IMG/VR virus record: IMGVR_UViG_3300046011_002466
Span: 1 to 21,119 of that record
Origin: a virus
Strand: one strand, 5' to 3'
Length of the DNA: 21,119 bases
Position 1 is the first letter of the stretch; each line of letters starts with the position of its first letter. Shown one piece after another: positions 4,334 through 14,166 of this stretch. The notes beneath the pieces are model-generated. The model did not search any database. It had not been told where the DNA came from and worked only from the letters and a program-made list of their open reading frames with translations. The position numbers and the translations under genes are program-made.

Positions 4334-5532
4334 TATTGCAAAGCCGTTACATGAAGTTGAGAAAATCCATTTAATTTTTCAATACGCAAAAAGAAATCAT
4401 CGCCATTTGTTGTAGTAAGCGCATCACCTGTTACAATCGTAAAACTACTTATGGTAATTGTGCCAGCACTGCCATTATTACTGACCTGTATAGTAAGAAC
4501 TGTATTATTTGTTGGTGGTGCTAATGTGTGCGCCCCGCCATTAGTATAATATTGTTGTTGTCCATTTGCCTCATTAGGGGTAAAAGTGCCACTTGATATA
4601 GTGCCAGCATTATATGGCGTTGTGGCGTAACCAACAGTAAGCACATCTGTTGTATCAGCCTTTAATATATCAGCATCATAGGCTTGCACTACAGAACCAA
4701 TATCGCCATCAACTAATATATTTGCAGCAACTACGCCACCATCAACCGCATCGCCGTCACTATTCCACATAGCAACATTGCCATTAGTGCCAGCCGTCCC
4801 GCTTACCAGTTTTGTATCTGCGCCAGTTGTATCAGTAAGAGTTGTGCCTCCAAATGTAAGGTTACCCTGCAACGCAAGCGTAGTGCTACCACCTCCGCCA
4901 TAACTAAATGCAGTAGTGCCACTATTTGTCTTAAAGTTAAGTCCTGCACTTGTTGCAGCTTGTAAATCCGTGGTAAAAACATCATCAAACGTGCCGCCAG
5001 CGAGGGTTGCATTACCACCTGTCACCGTTACACTATTTGCGTTTTGAGTTGAAATAGTGCCAAGCCCAGCAATCTTGCTACGTTCAGAACTTGTTAAAAA
5101 TAATTGCGTGCTTCCCTGAGTTATATCATCACTATTACCAATTAAATCACCTAAATTAGGAGAGGAATTATCAATAATTTTAGTGAATGTTATTGCTGAA
5201 GTTCCAATGATTATAGGGTCATTATTATTGATATACCATAAACCTTGATGTGTTCCTTTATTCACCCGAATATAAGTTCCTGCAACAATATCCTTTGCGC
5301 CGTTGAAATCAGCACTGCGCACCCATTCGCCTGTTGATGCAATATAGATGCCATTTTGTGTTTCATTGGTTTGTAATCTTACTAATATTCTATCGCCTTC
5401 AACTACAGTGATAGAAAATGGTGCATCTATTACCTGTAATCCTGATAGCGTTATATTACTACTGGTTGCAGCAACACATGGTGCTTTTATTGCTACGCTT
5501 CCAGTTATTCCGCTTAATCTATCTGTTGCCAT
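4333..5532 (-). CDS. Tail fibre protein with shared anchor domain, 399 aa
   Basis: Residues 1-120 form the same anchor domain as in the 891-aa fibre (SVAIKAP, ITLSGLQVID, DRILVRLQT, NGIYIASTGEWVRSADFNGA, IIIGTSAITFT). A beta-rich shaft follows, then GSVVQAYDADILKAD, a motif often seen in phage fibres, and DVLTVGYATTPYNAGT. The last ~100 residues form a compact beta domain ending LNGFSQLHVTALQ that I associate with alphaproteobacterial phage tail proteins. The frame stays open for six codons upstream (first Met at 5550), but I place the start at 5532 for three reasons: alignment with the paralogue's N-terminus, the TAATG overlap with the upstream stop, and a G-rich ribosome-like sequence 8-9 bases upstream. 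Likely role: a tail-bound fibre or adaptor for the lectin-like protein encoded directly after it. Confidence 0.88.
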   Translation of the reverse strand: MATDRLSGITGSVAIKAPCVAATSSNITLSGLQVIDAPFSITVVEGDRILVRLQTNETQNGIYIASTGEWVRSADFNGAKDIVAGTYIRVNKGTHQGLWYINNNDPIIIGTSAITFTKIIDNSSPNLGDLIGNSDDITQGSTQLFLTSSERSKIAGLGTISTQNANSVTVTGGNATLAGGTFDDVFTTDLQAATSAGLNFKTNSGTTAFSYGGGGSTTLALQGNLTFGGTTLTDTTGADTKLVSGTAGTNGNVAMWNSDGDAVDGGVVAANILVDGDIGSVVQAYDADILKADTTDVLTVGYATTPYNAGTISSGTFTPNEANGQQQYYTNGGAHTLAPPTNNTVLTIQVSNNGSAGTITISSFTIVTGDALTTTNGDDFFLRIEKLNGFSQLHVTALQ

Positions 5533-8033
5533 TATCTTGCACCCCACCATGGTTCTGCACCACGTTCTTCTAATTTTCTTTTCTCTAAATTACGCATGCG
5601 CCTATCAAAATTAGGGTCAATCGCACGTTCTATGCTATCCATAATTACCCTGTTCAAAATTAAATCAGCATACCACACATTTGTCGGTGCTGCATATCTA
5701 GTTGTCACCTGCGCTAATTTTGTTCTAAGATTTTTGCTTGCATTTTTCTGTCCAACGGCAGCTTTTGCCGATAAAGCCACGATTGCGCCAATATCTGTTG
5801 CGATTCCAACTGGTGCGCCACTTAATAAGTCGCCAAAATCTTTGCCATATAAAGAAACATCGTTTTGAATTAAATCGCCAAATAACCCTATTGCGCCACC
5901 TTGCAAAGCTGCCCTTACCCAAAATGCGCCATCTGTCGGGTCTTCTGCGGTAAATCCACCTGTCAATGATTTTAATTCTAACGTCAATGCGCCCATTAAT
6001 GTTAATGCAACGAAATAACTAGATAACTCACCAATTTTACCTGTTGCAGATGCGCGCCTTATTATTGGCGCAATATGGTTAATGGTTTGCGTTACCATGA
6101 AGCTCTTAAACATCAAAGTTGAACCAAGCATTGCTCTGCCACCAGTGCCGAACTCCTGCCCTCCATTCATTACCGCTTGCGTGAATAAACGACTTTCATT
6201 TGATGATTGTTGCGATAATTCCGCTAACCACATTTCATATTTGAATGCGATTTTTTTATCCGCTTTATCCATTCCTTCAGGCAAAAGATAACCTAAATCT
6301 TCTTCCATCATGGTTGGCTTTCCACGCATGATAGCGTTATATTCATTCTCGCCAAGTCCAAACTTATCCATGGATTTTTTTAGCAAATCAGGCAATTCTT
6401 TGTATGGCAATTTTAGCGTTCTATATTCATCAAATAAGCCACCAATAGCCATATATGATGATTGACGTGTCGCATCGGTTATAACTGACATTCCAGTTAA
6501 TCGGTGCTGCATATCAGAAAAACCACCCATGGCATTATCAAACTTGCCCCATCTGGTATCAGTGTTGCGCACCTCCATTGAAGCTGCATATTTTGCTTGC
6601 CTAATGCTATTGCCAGATGCAGCTTGTGAGATTAAAATCGCTCGCCTTGCAAATCGTCTATCGGTTGCGTCTGCTGGGTTTAATATTTTCAAATAGCTTT
6701 TAGCCAACGCATATTGAGGCAATCCGTTTAATTTAGCCATTTGTCGCATTGAGGCTTGGTCTGATAATGTGCTAAGTGGTGCTTTAGTTAGGAATACTGC
6801 CCTTGCTAAGTTATTTATTCCACGCCACAAATAATAACGTCCTGCTACACGCTCATTGCCAACGCCCAATATTTCACCGCTTAAGTTTTTCCACATAGCG
6901 TCAATCATGGTTTTCTTTTCACCATCTTGTGCAGCAAGTAACCTAATGCGCTGATATTGATTTCTAGGTTTTGCACCTAATACTTTCATCGTGCCAACAT
7001 CTCTAGCCATACTTTCAATATGTGCCATAAATGTATCAAAAAGCCCTTCATCACCAACGCCGTATTTATCGTTAATTTTAAAAAAACTATCAGCATCTTT
7101 ATAAACAAAAAAGCGTGATGATGAACGGCGCATCATCATTCCGCCTCTGCCACCAGTGATAACTTTCTCATCTTCAATCGCCCCTAGAATATCATTTAAT
7201 CCTTGGGATTTAATGTTTTCAAAAGAACCTTTCATAATTACATTTTTTACATATTCTTCACCATCAATGGGTAATTGATTTCTTGCATGAACCAAAAATG
7301 GCATTCCAGTTCTATCGTCAATCATCTTATCCCATGCAAGAGTGGGCATCATGTCATTATACCATTGCTCAAACGCAATATTATCGTCTAATTTTGGAGG
7401 CGCAACTCTTGAAGCAATTAACCTTTGCGGAAAGTAATTAGGCAGTTTCCCCATTACGCCACCAACGCCTCTAAAATCATTGCCCATATATTCAAATAAT
7501 TCACTTACCTTTGGAGCGGTTGCCTTAGCATAGGCATCACCACTGTCTTTTTGCAATATTTCAGCAACGATATTCTTAAAGCCCTTCCAATCTTGCGCAA
7601 ATCCAAGTGCTTTTGAACGGAATTTTTCTATAACTTCACCAGCCATCATCGTATATTCACGTTGTTTGGCAAGCTGTGCGGTGTATCCTTCCTCTAATAT
7701 TTGATGCGCTGCATAAGTGTTTTTACCATAAATATAAGTTGCCTCACCTATTTTACCAGCTTCATTGCGCTCTAATTCATAAGTGTCTGCAATTTTACCA
7801 TGCTTTGCTTTTATCTGACGATAAGTTAATATATCATTAATTGCCGCTTTATTTTTAGCATTTAATTCTATGATGGTGGATTGCACCACCCTAGTTGCAG
7901 CAAGATGCGCAGCCTCATTATCGCCAATAGTTTGTTGATAAGTTTTATAATGCTTTTCATAATCTTTTTCAATCTGCTGCCGTTGTGCGGGAGTTAATGC
8001 AGCGGTGGATTTAATACAATCTAAAAAACTCAT
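5532..8033 (-). CDS. Polyvalent-type internal virion protein, 833 aa (C-terminal-half type)
   Basis: The protein matches the pattern I know from the C-terminal part of very large phage polyvalent/ejection proteins. Landmarks are RFFVYKDADSFFKINDKYG (about 307-325), MARDVGTMKVLGAKPRN (342-358), ARAVFLTKAPLSTLSD (410-425), MFKSFMVTQTINH (641-653), a hydrophobic helix (about 673-688), QGGAIGLFGDL (711-721), NVWYADLILNRVIMD (785-799) and the tail motif DPNFDRRMRNLEKR ending WWGAR. The N-terminal 150 residues are helical and charged. It is probably packaged in the capsid and ejected with the DNA, where the hydrophobic helix could insert into the envelope; this is inference from family and position. 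The start follows AAGG by about six bases and lies 3 bases after the preceding stop. In some phages I believe this region is fused to the preceding zincin protein; here the two are separate genes. Confidence 0.82.
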   Translation of the reverse strand: MSFLDCIKSTAALTPAQRQQIEKDYEKHYKTYQQTIGDNEAAHLAATRVVQSTIIELNAKNKAAINDILTYRQIKAKHGKIADTYELERNEAGKIGEATYIYGKNTYAAHQILEEGYTAQLAKQREYTMMAGEVIEKFRSKALGFAQDWKGFKNIVAEILQKDSGDAYAKATAPKVSELFEYMGNDFRGVGGVMGKLPNYFPQRLIASRVAPPKLDDNIAFEQWYNDMMPTLAWDKMIDDRTGMPFLVHARNQLPIDGEEYVKNVIMKGSFENIKSQGLNDILGAIEDEKVITGGRGGMMMRRSSSRFFVYKDADSFFKINDKYGVGDEGLFDTFMAHIESMARDVGTMKVLGAKPRNQYQRIRLLAAQDGEKKTMIDAMWKNLSGEILGVGNERVAGRYYLWRGINNLARAVFLTKAPLSTLSDQASMRQMAKLNGLPQYALAKSYLKILNPADATDRRFARRAILISQAASGNSIRQAKYAASMEVRNTDTRWGKFDNAMGGFSDMQHRLTGMSVITDATRQSSYMAIGGLFDEYRTLKLPYKELPDLLKKSMDKFGLGENEYNAIMRGKPTMMEEDLGYLLPEGMDKADKKIAFKYEMWLAELSQQSSNESRLFTQAVMNGGQEFGTGGRAMLGSTLMFKSFMVTQTINHIAPIIRRASATGKIGELSSYFVALTLMGALTLELKSLTGGFTAEDPTDGAFWVRAALQGGAIGLFGDLIQNDVSLYGKDFGDLLSGAPVGIATDIGAIVALSAKAAVGQKNASKNLRTKLAQVTTRYAAPTNVWYADLILNRVIMDSIERAIDPNFDRRMRNLEKRKLEERGAEPWWGAR

Positions 8034-8036
8034 TTC

Positions 8037-11000
8037 TTACCTTGCGCACGTTTGCATTGCAGCGATTATATTATTATCAGCCTCAATCATAGCATTTATG
8101 TCATTATATGACAAGCCAGTTACTTCGTCAATTTCATCGCCAAAATCACGCACCAACCTTGCAAAATCTGCCTGTTGCGCAAAATCAATCTCGCTTTGCT
8201 CAAACTCTAATTGCGGTGGAATGGATTTATCATTCACGCTATTGGTGACAAAATCATTAGGCTCAATCATAGCTGGTTGTCGCCATTTATCCATAACTGC
8301 CACTATATCATCAGGAATATAAGCATCACTATTCCATAGTTCTTCATATTTAGATGATGCAAGTTTGCGCATATTGCTGAACACTTCCCTTAATTCTTCA
8401 TTTGGTGGATTGCCAGTCATAAAATGTGTTTCAACTGCATCTGCTATCTGTTGTTTTTGCGCAACATTAAGCGGAGTGCGCATATCGCCACCAACAAAAT
8501 TAACAATCGCTTGATAATCTTTTAATGCTTTCACGCTAGTGCTTGGTTGTAAAATAGCTTCCTGCATGGTTGAAACATAGAAGTCACCAGCCTCATAGAA
8601 TAAATCATTTGCGCTTTGAGTTGTGCTGAATAGTGTCTGGTCATTACTTAGCTTTGCAGCCATTATCGCATCATAGCTATCATTTTTAGATGCGTATTTT
8701 CTGGTAACATCAGGCGTTAGCCATCTATCAAAAACTTGCCTTATGTCATCGTTCAATTCAACATCAAGGTCACGCCATGATTGATATATCTGCATCAACC
8801 AATCTTTCATGGTTGCGAATAGCGATTTCAACTGCTCATTTGGCGCAATTCCTTCTCGCATATGTTGCTCAAAGCCACGAGCAAGTTTTTCTTCCTGCTC
8901 AACTGTGAATTTCTGTCCTCGCTCTGCACCGACCAAATCTTCCATGGTTTCCCAATCAGCTTTTAATTCCGCTGGTGCTTTTTCATGCGCTGCCAATTCA
9001 CGCATCATATTAGTGTAAAAATGCCCCATTTCATGAATGAACGTTGAAGCGTCCGCATCTTTGAAAAGCGTGATTGTGGCTTGATTGCCGTTAAATGTGA
9101 TAGAGCCTTTTGCGGGTTGAAATAAAGTATCCTGCTTTAATTCTGACTGGTCAAACAAGTTAGTTTCACCCTGCATTCCTTTCTGCGCAACCTTGGCTTT
9201 GCTTGCGCCTTCCATTTTACGCTCAATTAATTCACGTTGCGATATTGGCTCAAAGCCTTCTAGTGATGGCGTGGAGTTGTCTGGGGGTTGTTTTTTGCCA
9301 CGTTGGTATAGGGTGGTTGATTTTTTATTTTCAAAATCCTGCCTTGTGATAACATTGCCATCTTTGCTACCAAGGCTGCGCATTAACGCTGCGCCGTCTG
9401 TGGTTGTTCCAGTAGAGTTTTTTATAATTTCAACATTTGGATAATCATTAAATATTTTCTGAATAGCAGCTTTAATAACGCCTTTTTTCCTATGTGCTTC
9501 TTTTGTGAAAGGGCTATCAAACTCCATTTCATTTGGTTTTTCTGGGTCAATGTAAAAATCAATAGATGCAACTTGTTGTCTAACTAAATTAGGGCTTTCT
9601 TTTCGTTCTGCTTCGGTTAATGTATAATCTATGAATAATTTAATTTTATTATTTTTACCTACTGCAAACTCACCATTTTCTTTTTTATAAACTTCATTTG
9701 AAATTGTTTCACGAAATGTATAATTTTCTGGTAATTCATAATTATTATTGCCACCTTGATATAATATCCGTGCATCGTTAGGTGAAAATGCGCCTTGGTT
9801 GCTGCCAATATCCAACCCGTCAAAGAAATTATTAATAGCAGCTTCAAACGCATCATCAACATCACCATATCTTTCAACAAAGCTATCATAGCTCGTCATA
9901 ATCATATCTTGATATTCCCATAATGGCAGGTCATTACGCCCTGTTGCCATTAGCTTTTCATGGATATTATTGTGCATTAAATTACGCTTTTGGTCACGCA
10001 AATCTAATTTTTCATAATATAGTTTTTGCGCTAATTCATAAGGCGTTGTGCGGTTGGTTATGCCATAAGGATTACTTTCAACTGTGCCAACATTAGCTTG
10101 TTCCCAGTTGCGCATTGCATCAACATCTGATTGCTTATAGATAGGTTCTTCTTGAATTGATTTTGCTAGTAAATCATAAAAATCGTCCATAGTTGGCGCA
10201 TTATTTACCATGGCTGCATAATCAGAATATTCAACACCTTGCGCTTGTGGAAAATAACCTTCATTAATAGCACGCTGCAATAATCCACCAGTGCCATCAA
10301 CATTAAATTGTTCCATTGAACCAACTGCAAAACCAGTTTTGCGGTCAATGTTTTTTTCATAACCTTTACTGCGATTACCCTTGTATTCAGCACGAATACC
10401 GCCAGCAAATGTTTTTGGAGTAATGTCACGTGCTTTAAGTTCTCCGCCTTTATCAACCACCCCGCCTTGTTGCTTAACCCATTGATGAAAAGCTATTGGA
10501 TTATAGCCTATTTTCTGTTTCCAAGTATTTTGAACTTTTGTCTTGTTAGTTTTCCAATCTGCAATAATGGTTTCAGCCCTAGGAATAGATTGCTCTATTC
10601 CTAGGGTAGTTCTATTGATTTGCTCTGCATTATCAACCCTAATATTAGCTGGTTGCGGTGCTAAAATATCATCATTTGCATCGTATCTAGGAATACTATT
10701 ATAATCAGGTTGTCGACCCGCTTCAATCGCATCTAATGTTTCTTGCAAGTTCTCTCTATGGATTTGCACAGCTTTATTAATAGCAGTTTCAGGCGTGATA
10801 TTTGGATTAGTGGTTTGCACCGCTTCAATGATTTCTTGTGGGATATTATCTTCAACTTGCGCTTTTCGGTTTATCCATTTTGCAGCATATCTTTGTGCTT
10901 TAGTCGCAATCGGACTTTCTACAATTTTATTCATTACCTCAATACGATTTGCACGATTTCTAATAAAGTTATAAGCAGGAGGCAATCCTTTTGCTACCCC

Positions 11001-11747
11001 TGTTATAACTCCTGCCCCAATACCAGCCGTTGCAACCTGTAAAGCCATATCTGATGCGCTCATTGGCGTTCCAAGGGCAGTTTCAACACGCTGATTAGCT
11101 GGTAATTGTGTTGCCTCAATTCCCATATTAATTGCAGCTTCACCTGCAATAGTTTTTAATATCCCATTAGCTGCGCCCATTCCAAGTGGTAACGTGGCAA
11201 TATTAATAGGGTCAAGCATTGAACCAGCAATTTCACCCACAAAAGGCGCAACATACTTTGATGTAGTTCCCGCACCACGAGAAGAGTAATCTGCTACAAC
11301 CTGCCTTTGTGAGTTTATTTCTTGATTATAATATTGCTTTATTTCTTCTGTTGTGTTAATTCCCGCCCATTTTTCAGGATTAGATTTTCTACCTTCAATA
11401 ATTTGCGCATCAAGCAACGAGTATGTTTTGTCATTAAGGTTTCTTTGTTGCAAAGATGCTTCTATTGGTGTTGGTTGCGTGAATTTCTCAAAAAACCCTT
11501 CAGGTTTTGGCATAGCTTTTTCAGCTTCCAATTTTGCAGTGCCAACATAATCAAAATCTGTGAAATTATTTTTAATAAAATCATCACGTTCTGATATTTT
11601 CTTATCAAGGTTATAATCATAAACTTCTGATTTACGAAAAAACGCACTAGTTGCCACTGTTGCATTTTCTAATGCGCCTGTTGATTGCGTATTTGGTGAA
11701 TAAGCTGGCAAATAATCAATTCCACTTTTTAGAAAAGAAGCACCCAT
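8037..11747 (-). CDS. Large polyvalent internal virion protein with zincin domain, 1236 aa
   Basis: The gene occupies the gp16 position of T7-like phages. Visible segments: a helical N-terminus; glycine-rich hydrophobic stretches (about 165-212 and 232-256) that could insert into membranes; a polyvalent-protein (LPD-type) region starting FHQWVKQQGGVVDKGGELKARD (420-441); a GNAT-like region (about 700-793, with FTKEAHRKKGVIKAAIQ and TDGAALMRSLG); a zincin metallopeptidase domain (about 900-1012) with HEMGH at 905-909 and a downstream ARGFEQH that could supply the third ligand; and a degenerate second copy (about 1046-1158). LYQ or LFQ motifs mark several borders. It is probably ejected into the host, where the protease-like domain might act on host or virion proteins; the target is unknown. 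It starts 1 base after the preceding stop. No T7 gp16-like lytic transglycosylase domain is visible. Confidence 0.85.
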   Translation of the reverse strand: MGASFLKSGIDYLPAYSPNTQSTGALENATVATSAFFRKSEVYDYNLDKKISERDDFIKNNFTDFDYVGTAKLEAEKAMPKPEGFFEKFTQPTPIEASLQQRNLNDKTYSLLDAQIIEGRKSNPEKWAGINTTEEIKQYYNQEINSQRQVVADYSSRGAGTTSKYVAPFVGEIAGSMLDPINIATLPLGMGAANGILKTIAGEAAINMGIEATQLPANQRVETALGTPMSASDMALQVATAGIGAGVITGVAKGLPPAYNFIRNRANRIEVMNKIVESPIATKAQRYAAKWINRKAQVEDNIPQEIIEAVQTTNPNITPETAINKAVQIHRENLQETLDAIEAGRQPDYNSIPRYDANDDILAPQPANIRVDNAEQINRTTLGIEQSIPRAETIIADWKTNKTKVQNTWKQKIGYNPIAFHQWVKQQGGVVDKGGELKARDITPKTFAGGIRAEYKGNRSKGYEKNIDRKTGFAVGSMEQFNVDGTGGLLQRAINEGYFPQAQGVEYSDYAAMVNNAPTMDDFYDLLAKSIQEEPIYKQSDVDAMRNWEQANVGTVESNPYGITNRTTPYELAQKLYYEKLDLRDQKRNLMHNNIHEKLMATGRNDLPLWEYQDMIMTSYDSFVERYGDVDDAFEAAINNFFDGLDIGSNQGAFSPNDARILYQGGNNNYELPENYTFRETISNEVYKKENGEFAVGKNNKIKLFIDYTLTEAERKESPNLVRQQVASIDFYIDPEKPNEMEFDSPFTKEAHRKKGVIKAAIQKIFNDYPNVEIIKNSTGTTTDGAALMRSLGSKDGNVITRQDFENKKSTTLYQRGKKQPPDNSTPSLEGFEPISQRELIERKMEGASKAKVAQKGMQGETNLFDQSELKQDTLFQPAKGSITFNGNQATITLFKDADASTFIHEMGHFYTNMMRELAAHEKAPAELKADWETMEDLVGAERGQKFTVEQEEKLARGFEQHMREGIAPNEQLKSLFATMKDWLMQIYQSWRDLDVELNDDIRQVFDRWLTPDVTRKYASKNDSYDAIMAAKLSNDQTLFSTTQSANDLFYEAGDFYVSTMQEAILQPSTSVKALKDYQAIVNFVGGDMRTPLNVAQKQQIADAVETHFMTGNPPNEELREVFSNMRKLASSKYEELWNSDAYIPDDIVAVMDKWRQPAMIEPNDFVTNSVNDKSIPPQLEFEQSEIDFAQQADFARLVRDFGDEIDEVTGLSYNDINAMIEADNNIIAAMQTCAR
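10577..10606. repeat. Perfect 13-bp inverted repeat with 4-base loop
   Basis: CCCTAGGAATAGA at 10577-10589 and its exact complement TCTATTCCTAGGG at 10594-10606 flank the loop TTGC. Each arm contains CCTAGG. The repeat lies inside the 1236-aa gene, around residues 381-390, in a linker-like stretch before the LPD-type region. It is not followed by a T-run on either strand, so it does not look like an intrinsic terminator. Confidence 0.9.
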
Positions 11748-11748
11748 A

Positions 11749-14166
11749 TCAGTTTCCGTTTATAATTTTTTTCAAGTTTAACACAAATGTTTTGCCATCT
11801 CCATCAAGTAATCTTGCGCCATTGAGGATAACGCCATACTGTCCGTCACCAATAGATGCTAAAATTGCATTATCACGCCATTCATCAACAGATACATCAC
11901 CCATATCGCTTCTAGGTAATCCACCATTTATTTGTATAATTTGCTTATCTGTTAAATCGTCTATTGCGCTTTGCAAAATATCTTCATCAACCATATTTCC
12001 CGCATTATCTTTGAATGAGAAAACTTTGCTACCATTATCTAATTCAACTGGTGCGCCGATAATGTCTGTAACGGCTTTAGTTATTAAATTGGTATCAATA
12101 ACAGTTTTGTCGCTGCTTCCTTCCCCAACTTGTGTATTACGATAATCCATCGCTTTATAATATGAAGTTAGAGCATTGGTTAAGCCTTCAACTTGAGATG
12201 CAGGAACGAACATGCCATCAAATATAGAGTTTAATTCGGTTCTGAAATCGCCAGCCTTAAATTCAGTTGGCAACCTTTCACCTTCAATAATTGCGGTAGC
12301 AACCTGTGGTTCTTGTGCTAATGCAACCGCAAATGAACTATTGGCTTTGAATGCTTTATATGCAACTCTTTCAAGTTCATCTGGGGTCATGACTTCTTTT
12401 AATGCAGCTATTTTTGCAACAAACGCACTTGGCTCACCTTTCTCAAAATCAACTTTAAGCGCATCAATTTCATTTTCTGATAAAATCGGAATATTGAGAT
12501 TATTACCTTCAAATGATTTAATCTCGTTAATGCTTTCACGGCGTGAAATAAGCTCTCTAAAAACTGCATTACTATCCAATTCTTGCGAAGATAAATCAAG
12601 CGGAACAACTGGCGCAGTTAAACCGCTTTTAGCATAATAATCCAGTGGGTCTTTCTCAATTCTTTTAAGGTTTTCAGCGTGAGTTTCTTTTAGCAATCCA
12701 TATAATTCTGCATTTTTTGTGTTGCCACTCCCTAATTCCATTTGCAATTCTGATAATTGAGAAACTTGCTCATCTATGCGTCTACCCGAAAATAGCGATA
12801 TATTTTGTTGGTTATCGCCATAGGTTTTTATCTTATTGGCTAATTCAGGCTCGCCAACTTGATTTGCTTGCGTAACAAGGTTAGCAAACACTTCATTTGG
12901 AATAACTGCATTTTCTGACGTGGCTTTTTTTATTCCTTCAAACTCGGTGGATATATTGTTTTTTACATATCCATAAGTTGTGTTTCTTAATGTTTTCTGT
13001 TGCGCAGGGGTAACATAATTTAACAATGCAGCGTCATCGCTGCCATCAAACTTAGTTAATCTGTTTTGCCAACCGCCTAAAAACTGCTCATATTTTGCAG
13101 GGTCAAGCGATGCAAGGCGCATATATTCTTCATTGCGCATATTTTTAATATCATCTAATGACGCACCATTTTTAGCTGCATCAACTAATTCTTTCGCAAA
13201 ATCACTGCGATGATTAACCACACCATCAAACACGATTGCTTGCACATCATTAGGAACTTGTTCTAAATTATATTTGTCCCAATATCTTTCTTTATATAAT
13301 TGCTTGGCTTTGTCAGTAGTTAAGTTGGCAACATCAATATCAGGATTGGCTTTTTGATTAATTCCAAAGTTTGCAGGTGCGCCACTATTGCCATCATTGG
13401 CAACATAACCACCTTCATTTTGCAAAACAATATCAATAGCAGCATCAAATCCACCCGAATTGCCATTGAAAATCTTAAGTAAATCTTGAGGTGATTTTTT
13501 GCTCAACTGTGAAAATGCAGTTGCGTTTTGAATTTTTAATATTATCTCAGGTCTTTTGTCTGGAGGCAATACGCCCGCAGCAATCAAAGTATCAACTTCC
13601 GCTATTTGAGTTTGCATTAATCGCTGCATTGTATTTGGGTCATCTGTTGCGCTTATCTGATTAATCGTGCGGTCAAACGTTACATCTAAACCAGCAACCA
13701 GTTGTTTGTTACGCATTTCATAAGCGTTTTCATTTAGCTTTAATCCATAATTGGACATGTCCTGCTTTGCGGATAATTCAAACAATGAACGCTCACGATC
13801 ATCAGTGATATTGCTAGAATATTTTTGTAATGTTTTTTGCGCAAACTCATTAAATCGCTTTGGTTTTGTTGAATAATCAGGATTACTTAATTCTTGCGCA
13901 TACCAATCATTAAAATCCTGCACAAGCGCAGTTTGAGATTGTGCTTTTTGCAACTGTGTGACTTTCTGCCTTTCTTGCTCCATCAATTTCGCTTCATAGC
14001 GTTGCGTTTTTATTGCTTGATTTTGCAAAACCGCACCAGTTCTTTGCAACTGATTACCAGCTTGTTGCATTATTTTCCCTGTTGGGTCTTCAGGCAACGC
14101 AACAAACTGCCTATCATAAGATGGCGTTTGTCTATTTATATCCTGTGCCGATGGTAAGCGTGGCAT
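11749..14166 (-). CDS. Internal virion protein with GH108-type muramidase domain, 805 aa
   Basis: The N-terminus (about 30-160) is helical and Gln/Lys-rich, like internal core proteins. Residues about 238-375 match the glycoside hydrolase 108 / peptidoglycan-binding pattern: NEGGYVANDGNSGAPANFGIN (250-270), with the expected catalytic Glu at 251, then LTTDKAKQLYKERYWDKY (282-299) and VPNDVQAIVFDGVVNHR (304-320). This family cleaves the glycan backbone of peptidoglycan. The remaining ~430 residues are mostly helical without a known motif. It sits at the T7 gp15 position and probably forms part of the ejection channel, opening the cell wall locally during DNA entry. The start overlaps the preceding stop as TAATG, with a strong GGAGG nine bases upstream. 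I see no signal peptide or holin partner, so it is a virion hydrolase, not an endolysin. Confidence 0.88.
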   Translation of the reverse strand: MPRLPSAQDINRQTPSYDRQFVALPEDPTGKIMQQAGNQLQRTGAVLQNQAIKTQRYEAKLMEQERQKVTQLQKAQSQTALVQDFNDWYAQELSNPDYSTKPKRFNEFAQKTLQKYSSNITDDRERSLFELSAKQDMSNYGLKLNENAYEMRNKQLVAGLDVTFDRTINQISATDDPNTMQRLMQTQIAEVDTLIAAGVLPPDKRPEIILKIQNATAFSQLSKKSPQDLLKIFNGNSGGFDAAIDIVLQNEGGYVANDGNSGAPANFGINQKANPDIDVANLTTDKAKQLYKERYWDKYNLEQVPNDVQAIVFDGVVNHRSDFAKELVDAAKNGASLDDIKNMRNEEYMRLASLDPAKYEQFLGGWQNRLTKFDGSDDAALLNYVTPAQQKTLRNTTYGYVKNNISTEFEGIKKATSENAVIPNEVFANLVTQANQVGEPELANKIKTYGDNQQNISLFSGRRIDEQVSQLSELQMELGSGNTKNAELYGLLKETHAENLKRIEKDPLDYYAKSGLTAPVVPLDLSSQELDSNAVFRELISRRESINEIKSFEGNNLNIPILSENEIDALKVDFEKGEPSAFVAKIAALKEVMTPDELERVAYKAFKANSSFAVALAQEPQVATAIIEGERLPTEFKAGDFRTELNSIFDGMFVPASQVEGLTNALTSYYKAMDYRNTQVGEGSSDKTVIDTNLITKAVTDIIGAPVELDNGSKVFSFKDNAGNMVDEDILQSAIDDLTDKQIIQINGGLPRSDMGDVSVDEWRDNAILASIGDGQYGVILNGARLLDGDGKTFVLNLKKIINGN

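Follow-up and report, generated by a model that had tools for sequence, protein, structure and literature searches.

The 21-kb virus record IMGVR_UViG_3300046011_002466 (positions 1-21,119; this whole stretch of 21,119 nucleotides is referred to as the window) encodes at 8037..11747, on the minus strand, a 1236-residue protein with an intact frame and an ATG start, in which two homologous zincin domains stand side by side. Copy 1 is an active-looking zincin (residues 881-1016; 8700..9107), while copy 2 (residues 1038-1159; 8271..8636) is a degenerate twin in which all three inferred zinc ligands have been replaced. Copy 2 lies directly ahead of the C-terminal tail and is under strong purifying selection, as tight as that on copy 1 in a pairwise comparison with L002 (IMGVR_UViG_3300020044_006787), the one other phage found to carry the pair. 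The module upstream of the pair has been exchanged between these two phages. All window features described below lie on the minus strand.

A tandem zincin repeat had been proposed at this site in a first-pass annotation made from the letters of the DNA, and its coordinates proved exact: residues 900-1158 span 9050 down to 8274, with HEMGH at residues 905-909 and YEAGD at residues 1051-1055. Comparison of the two halves by BLASTP yielded 64.7 bits (E 6e-19, 28% identity over 121 residues), and their Smith-Waterman score of 157 (z ~27) was attained by none of 5000 shuffles, which averaged 28 and peaked at 59. Chance or compositional similarity of the halves was ruled out on these grounds, and the remainder of the 1236-residue protein scores just 34-39 against either half. 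A family hidden Markov model (HMM), built from 162 relatives with the window phage and its close relative L002 excluded, detected both copies, copy 1 with 168.9 bits and copy 2 with 58.7 bits (E 3e-20 in a single-target search). The profile-profile comparison that the annotation had named as a check points the same way, with an HHalign probability of 98.4% and an E value of 7e-15.

Copy 1 displays the features expected of a working zincin. Its HEMGH motif (9021..9035) sits in a predicted helix, with H905, E906 and H909 conserved in 100% of the family set, and a further predicted helix downstream of the motif bears two glutamates, namely E953 (8889..8891), a Glu in 99% of relatives, and the invariant E960 (8868..8870), equivalent to E1106 in copy 2. 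E953 is the probable third zinc ligand and E960 the alternative one, an arrangement that follows the gluzincin pattern given by Iyer 2017 (PMC5512222). Copy 1 also retains 31 of the 36 positions at which at least 80% of relatives agree; it is taken to be a putative peptidase. This zincin is covered by no curated Pfam model; a weak match to DUF3848 fell below the cutoff of that family and was set aside.

On the contrary, copy 2 retains 14 of those 36 positions, and YEAGD (8583..8597) takes the place of HExxH. The annotation had noted the loss of both histidines (H905 to Y1051, H909 to D1055), and these replacements are indeed present, although the loss was understated, since the third inferred ligand is also gone, with Q1099 (8451..8453) replacing the conserved E953 in the family alignment. 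Preserved are the motif Glu (E1052) and Gly (G1054), as the annotation had stated, together with the equivalents of A956 and E960 and structural G, P, L, F, Y, V and D residues. Regarding the E-x-H pair claimed to persist between residues 960/962 and 1106/1108, its glutamate (E960/E1106) is a family-wide feature, but the family does not share H962. In 98% of relatives, as well as in the first copy of L002, a Tyr stands at this position, and the His common to both copies is therefore no remnant of a catalytic site. Copy 2 is thus a derived relative of the zincins in which neither zinc binding nor peptidase action is to be expected.

Predicted structures agree with a common origin of both domains. 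In the AlphaFold2 model of the tandem, each of five helices in copy 1 recurs 146 residues further on in copy 2 (model numbering: 31-51, 57-70, 80-96, 102-124 and 131-140 in copy 1; 177-197, 203-216, 226-242, 248-269 and 277-287 in copy 2), the copy 2 part of this model being based on two sequences only. Copy 2 therefore shares with the zincin family the order of the helices as well as the sequence homology. Copy 1, predicted as a two-stranded hairpin plus helices, begins with a beta-hairpin at residues 881-894 (9066..9107; strands 12-17 and 20-25 in model numbering) that is missing in copy 2, where a helix is placed instead; a separate model of copy 2 agrees on this helix, with a mean predicted local distance difference test score of 80. 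Zincins normally hold their substrate with the strand region. Since its ligands are lost and the hairpin is replaced by a helix, copy 2 has neither a metal site nor the substrate-holding strands, and the loss of catalysis that the annotation had proposed is borne out and reinforced. Its further suggestion that copy 2 might recognize substrate is disfavoured as far as the usual zincin mode is concerned, the strand-bearing part being missing. Fold searches of both models with Foldseek and VIA-align returned nothing above background and no zincin, and no convincing sequence matches were found in the PDB; the fold need not be new on that account.

Despite its degenerate site, copy 2 has been maintained. 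Over 128 codons, the copies 2 of the window phage and L002 differ by ~29 synonymous and 6 nonsynonymous changes, corresponding to a synonymous rate (dS) of 0.53, a nonsynonymous rate (dN) of 0.022 and a dN/dS of 0.041, and a neutrally evolving segment would show so few nonsynonymous changes with a probability of ~4e-15. Copy 1 shows a similar balance, with 23 synonymous and 6 nonsynonymous changes and a dN/dS of 0.054. The zincin pair is 95-96% identical between both phages, and the pair together with the tail 92-96%. Upstream, at residues ~660-870 (9138..9770), the alignment to L002 breaks between flanks that are 91-96% identical, delimiting an exchangeable module. In the window, this module exhibits a weak resemblance to GNAT enzymes (Acetyltransf_1, only E 0.21), while its counterpart in L002 (7921-9640) contains LPD23 (1.8e-14, above the Pfam cutoff), an HEIQH segment and ART-PolyVal (0.0014, below the cutoff). 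The dS between the two phages also varies along the genes, being 0.06 in residues 1-300 (10848-11747), 0.35-0.53 in the zincin pair and 1.2 in the neighbouring gene for an 833-residue protein; such contrasting values point to recent recombination mosaicism between the window phage and L002.

The pair was sought among related phages, as the annotation had advised. Scans of viral contigs, of genome contigs and with a copy-2-led alignment contributed 80 loci each, and about 255 loci with the zincin domain were considered, some contigs being counted twice. Among them, copy 2 is present only in the window phage and L002. When the 400 residues after copy 1 were inspected with either the copy 1 or the copy 2 profile across these loci, no other second copy appeared; the best remaining candidate reached E 0.02 after correction, from scattered fragments, the best shuffled control being 0.14. 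Neither tblastn of the phage collection nor the search of plasmids recovered the pair, and two DNA patterns of copy 2 found L002 as their sole hit. An apparent copy 2 detected by tblastn in Cobetia phage Carin1 and Pseudomonas phage UFJF_PfDIW6, which have the single zincin, was in fact copy 1 matched twice. Copy 1 itself was detected by tblastn in 43 records of annotated phages that include BPP-1-like, Xanthomonas, Pseudomonas, Caulobacter and Vibrio phages.

Every complete single-copy zincin domain in these loci has HExxH, or HExxxH in three of them. One pattern of the viral and genome contig scans included HExxH, so that motif conservation there is partly due to selection; the copy-2-led scan was not motif-based, and still each complete domain in it bears HExxH or, in three cases, HExxxH. 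The latter spacing (HEFTGH, HEFAGH) occurs in the zincins of loci L203, L214 and L218, probably corresponding to the HEXXXH set described by Iyer 2017. In most relatives, the zincin is followed within the same chain by ~1100 residues.

The 1236-residue protein matches PHROG 9880 (E 1.7e-50) and is preceded by a gene for an 805-residue virion lysozyme (11749..14166; Glyco_hydro_108, E 5.9e-17) and followed by one for an 833-residue protein (5532..8033) that matches PHROG 684 (E 2.3e-80), whose homologue in phage Piluca is annotated as an epsilon15 gp17-like pilot protein. This order, lysozyme, gp16-like protein and phrog_684, is that of epsilon15-type phages, and its position between the virion lysozyme and phrog_684 places the 1236-residue protein in the gp16 slot. 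In line with this assignment, residues ~135-275 (10923..11345) form an N-terminal segment common to gp16-like proteins of epsilon15-type phages; phmmer matched this segment, with E values of 1e-9 to 7e-13, to the product of the gene preceding phrog_684 in several phages. The source phage is a short-tailed, epsilon15/BPP-1-like one, and the gp16-like protein is probably an internal virion protein that would be ejected into the host at infection. The several unrelated effector and LPD domains that characterize phage-type polyvalent proteins, encoded in a virion cassette, are recognized here from the domains of L002 and from the virion gene neighbours; in the window's own protein, the zincin is the only certain domain of the polyvalent set.

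Residues 1160-1236 (8040..8270), ending in EADNNIIAAMQTCAR, correspond to a native gp16-like C-terminal tail. A similar closing motif, consisting of acidic residues and then A..A..C near the last residue, was recognized by eye in the gp16-like proteins of at least 15 other phages, with or without a zincin. Because this native tail follows copy 2, the zincins are best read as an insertion ahead of it. Most gp16-like proteins examined are devoid of a zincin, and among the loci examined a zincin occurs only in those of the window, L002, L053 and L231. Those of L053 and L231, of the gp16-gp17 type, contain a single zincin, then a Pro-rich or long linker, and then a similar tail; it is this linker position, between zincin and tail, that copy 2 occupies in the window. 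The tail motif was seen at 8040-8270 of the window and in open reading frames of L053, L231, L099-L106 and L269-L278, and in the aligned phrog_684 neighbours of gp16-like reading frames Cys6, close to the N terminus, is invariant (MS...CI in most), the two being possibly a linked assembly or processing feature.

In-place duplication of copy 1 is favoured, though not proven, as the origin of copy 2. In the tree, copy 2 falls beside its own copy 1 with a support of 95 in the Shimodaira-Hasegawa-like approximate likelihood ratio test (SH-aLRT), on a very long branch, and this is also its best maximum-likelihood placement among 117 tested. Moreover, copy 2 has 8 rare residues in common with its own copy 1, whereas 162 relatives share 2.2 with it on average and at most 7. 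The old internal duplication claimed in the annotation is thus the best-scoring origin, but 64 of the 117 placements survive the approximately unbiased (AU) test, and the claim stays unproven. These surviving placements, the top pairwise score of copy 2 being to the zincin of L019, and the modular exchange common in such proteins, as between L002 and the window, would all suit an acquisition by recombination from another phage's zincin with later loss of the ligands, a route we hold to be less likely than duplication considering the best placement, the SH-aLRT value and the shared rare residues. That copy 2 is a non-functional remnant being lost is hardly credible: its catalytic residues are indeed gone and it occurs in only two phages, but its frame is intact in both and a dN/dS of 0.041, with ~29 synonymous changes, is as strict as that of copy 1. 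Decay was accordingly rejected on this phage pair, in favour of the maintained pseudoenzyme that the annotation had suggested; being conserved as tightly as copy 1, copy 2 probably still serves the protein as a support or for docking and is not junk. It is also very improbable that copy 2 keeps an altered active site formed by Y1051, E1052, D1055 and E1106, with another metal or chemistry. Both glutamates are kept and D1055 could bind a metal, but the substrate-holding strands are missing, and we know of no zincin metal site of such composition.

Among the functional explanations, the favoured one is given about an even chance of being correct: copy 1 would be the protease, and copy 2 would act on it in cis, as a helical domain without zinc that positions, docks or restrains it. 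Copy 2 is descended from a zincin, the likeliest route being that copy 1 was duplicated in the lineage of the window phage; it shed the three ligands and the N-terminal strands, would have diverged fast and would later have come under strong constraint. It would now hold the active copy on the native tail that follows and, probably, position or restrain copy 1 or dock it on a partner, presumably through contact between the copies, whereas copy 1 might cleave the polyvalent protein itself, freeing the upstream exchangeable module, or cleave a host protein. A stricter version appears unlikely, in which copy 2 is a pseudoprotease dedicated to determining, in cis, when or where copy 1 cleaves in the virion or on entry, and so controls release of the exchangeable effector modules. 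Somewhat more probable, yet still a minority option, is that copy 2 leaves copy 1 unaffected and serves as a dock for a different partner, for example a host protein, the gp17-like neighbour or the portal/core stack. Strong constraint in the absence of catalysis and the location of copy 2 directly before the conserved tail would fit such a role, and anthrax lethal factor, whose degenerate zincin-like domain serves delivery and not cleavage, offers a precedent; however, no partner is identifiable from sequence, and copy 2 occurs in just two phages while core and pilot proteins are widespread. Less probable again is a cis inhibitor, a built-in prodomain silencing copy 1 in the virion until ejection. 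Copy 2 adjoins copy 1, is homologous to it and has no zinc ligands, and timing control would presumably be needed where a protease shares the particle with the protein it cuts, but about 255 relatives have an active-looking zincin without a twin, so that inhibition by a twin is no general need, and no interface between the copies is predicted.

Several observations weigh against the cis-acting protease and support pair as proposed. The mutual placement of the domains is not confidently predicted (predicted template modelling score of 0.44 for the tandem), and for this reason binding, positioning or inhibition of copy 1, as put forward in the annotation, is a matter of inference. The pairwise score of copy 2 is slightly higher to the zincin of L019 (170) than to its own copy 1 (153), and the constraint on copy 2 derives from one pairwise comparison, since only two phages have the pair. 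In addition, no solved structure matches the zincin family of copy 1 by sequence or fold, and no activity data were found for this family.

Phage polyvalent proteins with one to five metallopeptidase (MPTase) domains, more than one copy being present in about 8% of them, have been described by Iyer 2017 (PMC5512222), who proposed that their zincins process their own protein or attack host proteins. Members of that phage-type set are, as here, large proteins of virion cassettes with many domains, among which MPTase, ART, GNAT and LPD domains are mixed. A second comparison is offered by Bbp10 of Bordetella phage BPP-1 (L006) and its relatives (PHROG 9880): the zincin domain is shared (34.9% identity, E 4e-14) and lies in a large protein likewise encoded downstream of the virion lysozyme. 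Bbp10, however, has one zincin followed by ~1100 residues in the same chain (about 2000 residues in total), while the chain of the window protein contains only the tail beyond copy 2, and phrog_684 is encoded next as a protein of its own, in agreement with epsilon15-type phages, which encode the gp16-like and gp17-like proteins separately and not as one chain. No similarity was detectable between the 833-residue protein of the window (5532-8033) and the BPP-1-type C-terminal part. The gp16-like and gp17-like proteins of epsilon15 and phiV10 share with the window the gene order, the segment at residues 135-275, the tail motif and the gp17-like neighbour, but the gp16-like ones mostly have no zincin, and among the loci examined the pair is confined to the window and L002.

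A functional analogy is provided by the M16 metallopeptidases (insulin-degrading enzyme, MPP), which combine an active half with a homologous inactive half, both being needed for function (PMC12731061). Their fold is nonetheless unrelated, their motif is the inverted HXXEH, and it is for M16, not for the window protein, that both halves are known to be needed. Inactive zincin-like domains have also been predicted in bacterial conflict proteins (PMC8195603). The annotation knew of no description of this arrangement in a virion protein. Proteins with two or more zincins, and pseudoenzyme halves elsewhere, are already known, but the literature searched did not describe any phage virion protein in which an active zincin and a dead one are neighbours, most subscription papers and supplements lying outside that search.

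The window phage and L002 thus add a phage case to the peptidases that keep an inactive twin for binding or shape. The constrained active/inactive pair, together with the single-zincin relatives that have a linker in the place of copy 2, makes it testable how polyvalent-protein zincins are controlled inside the particle.
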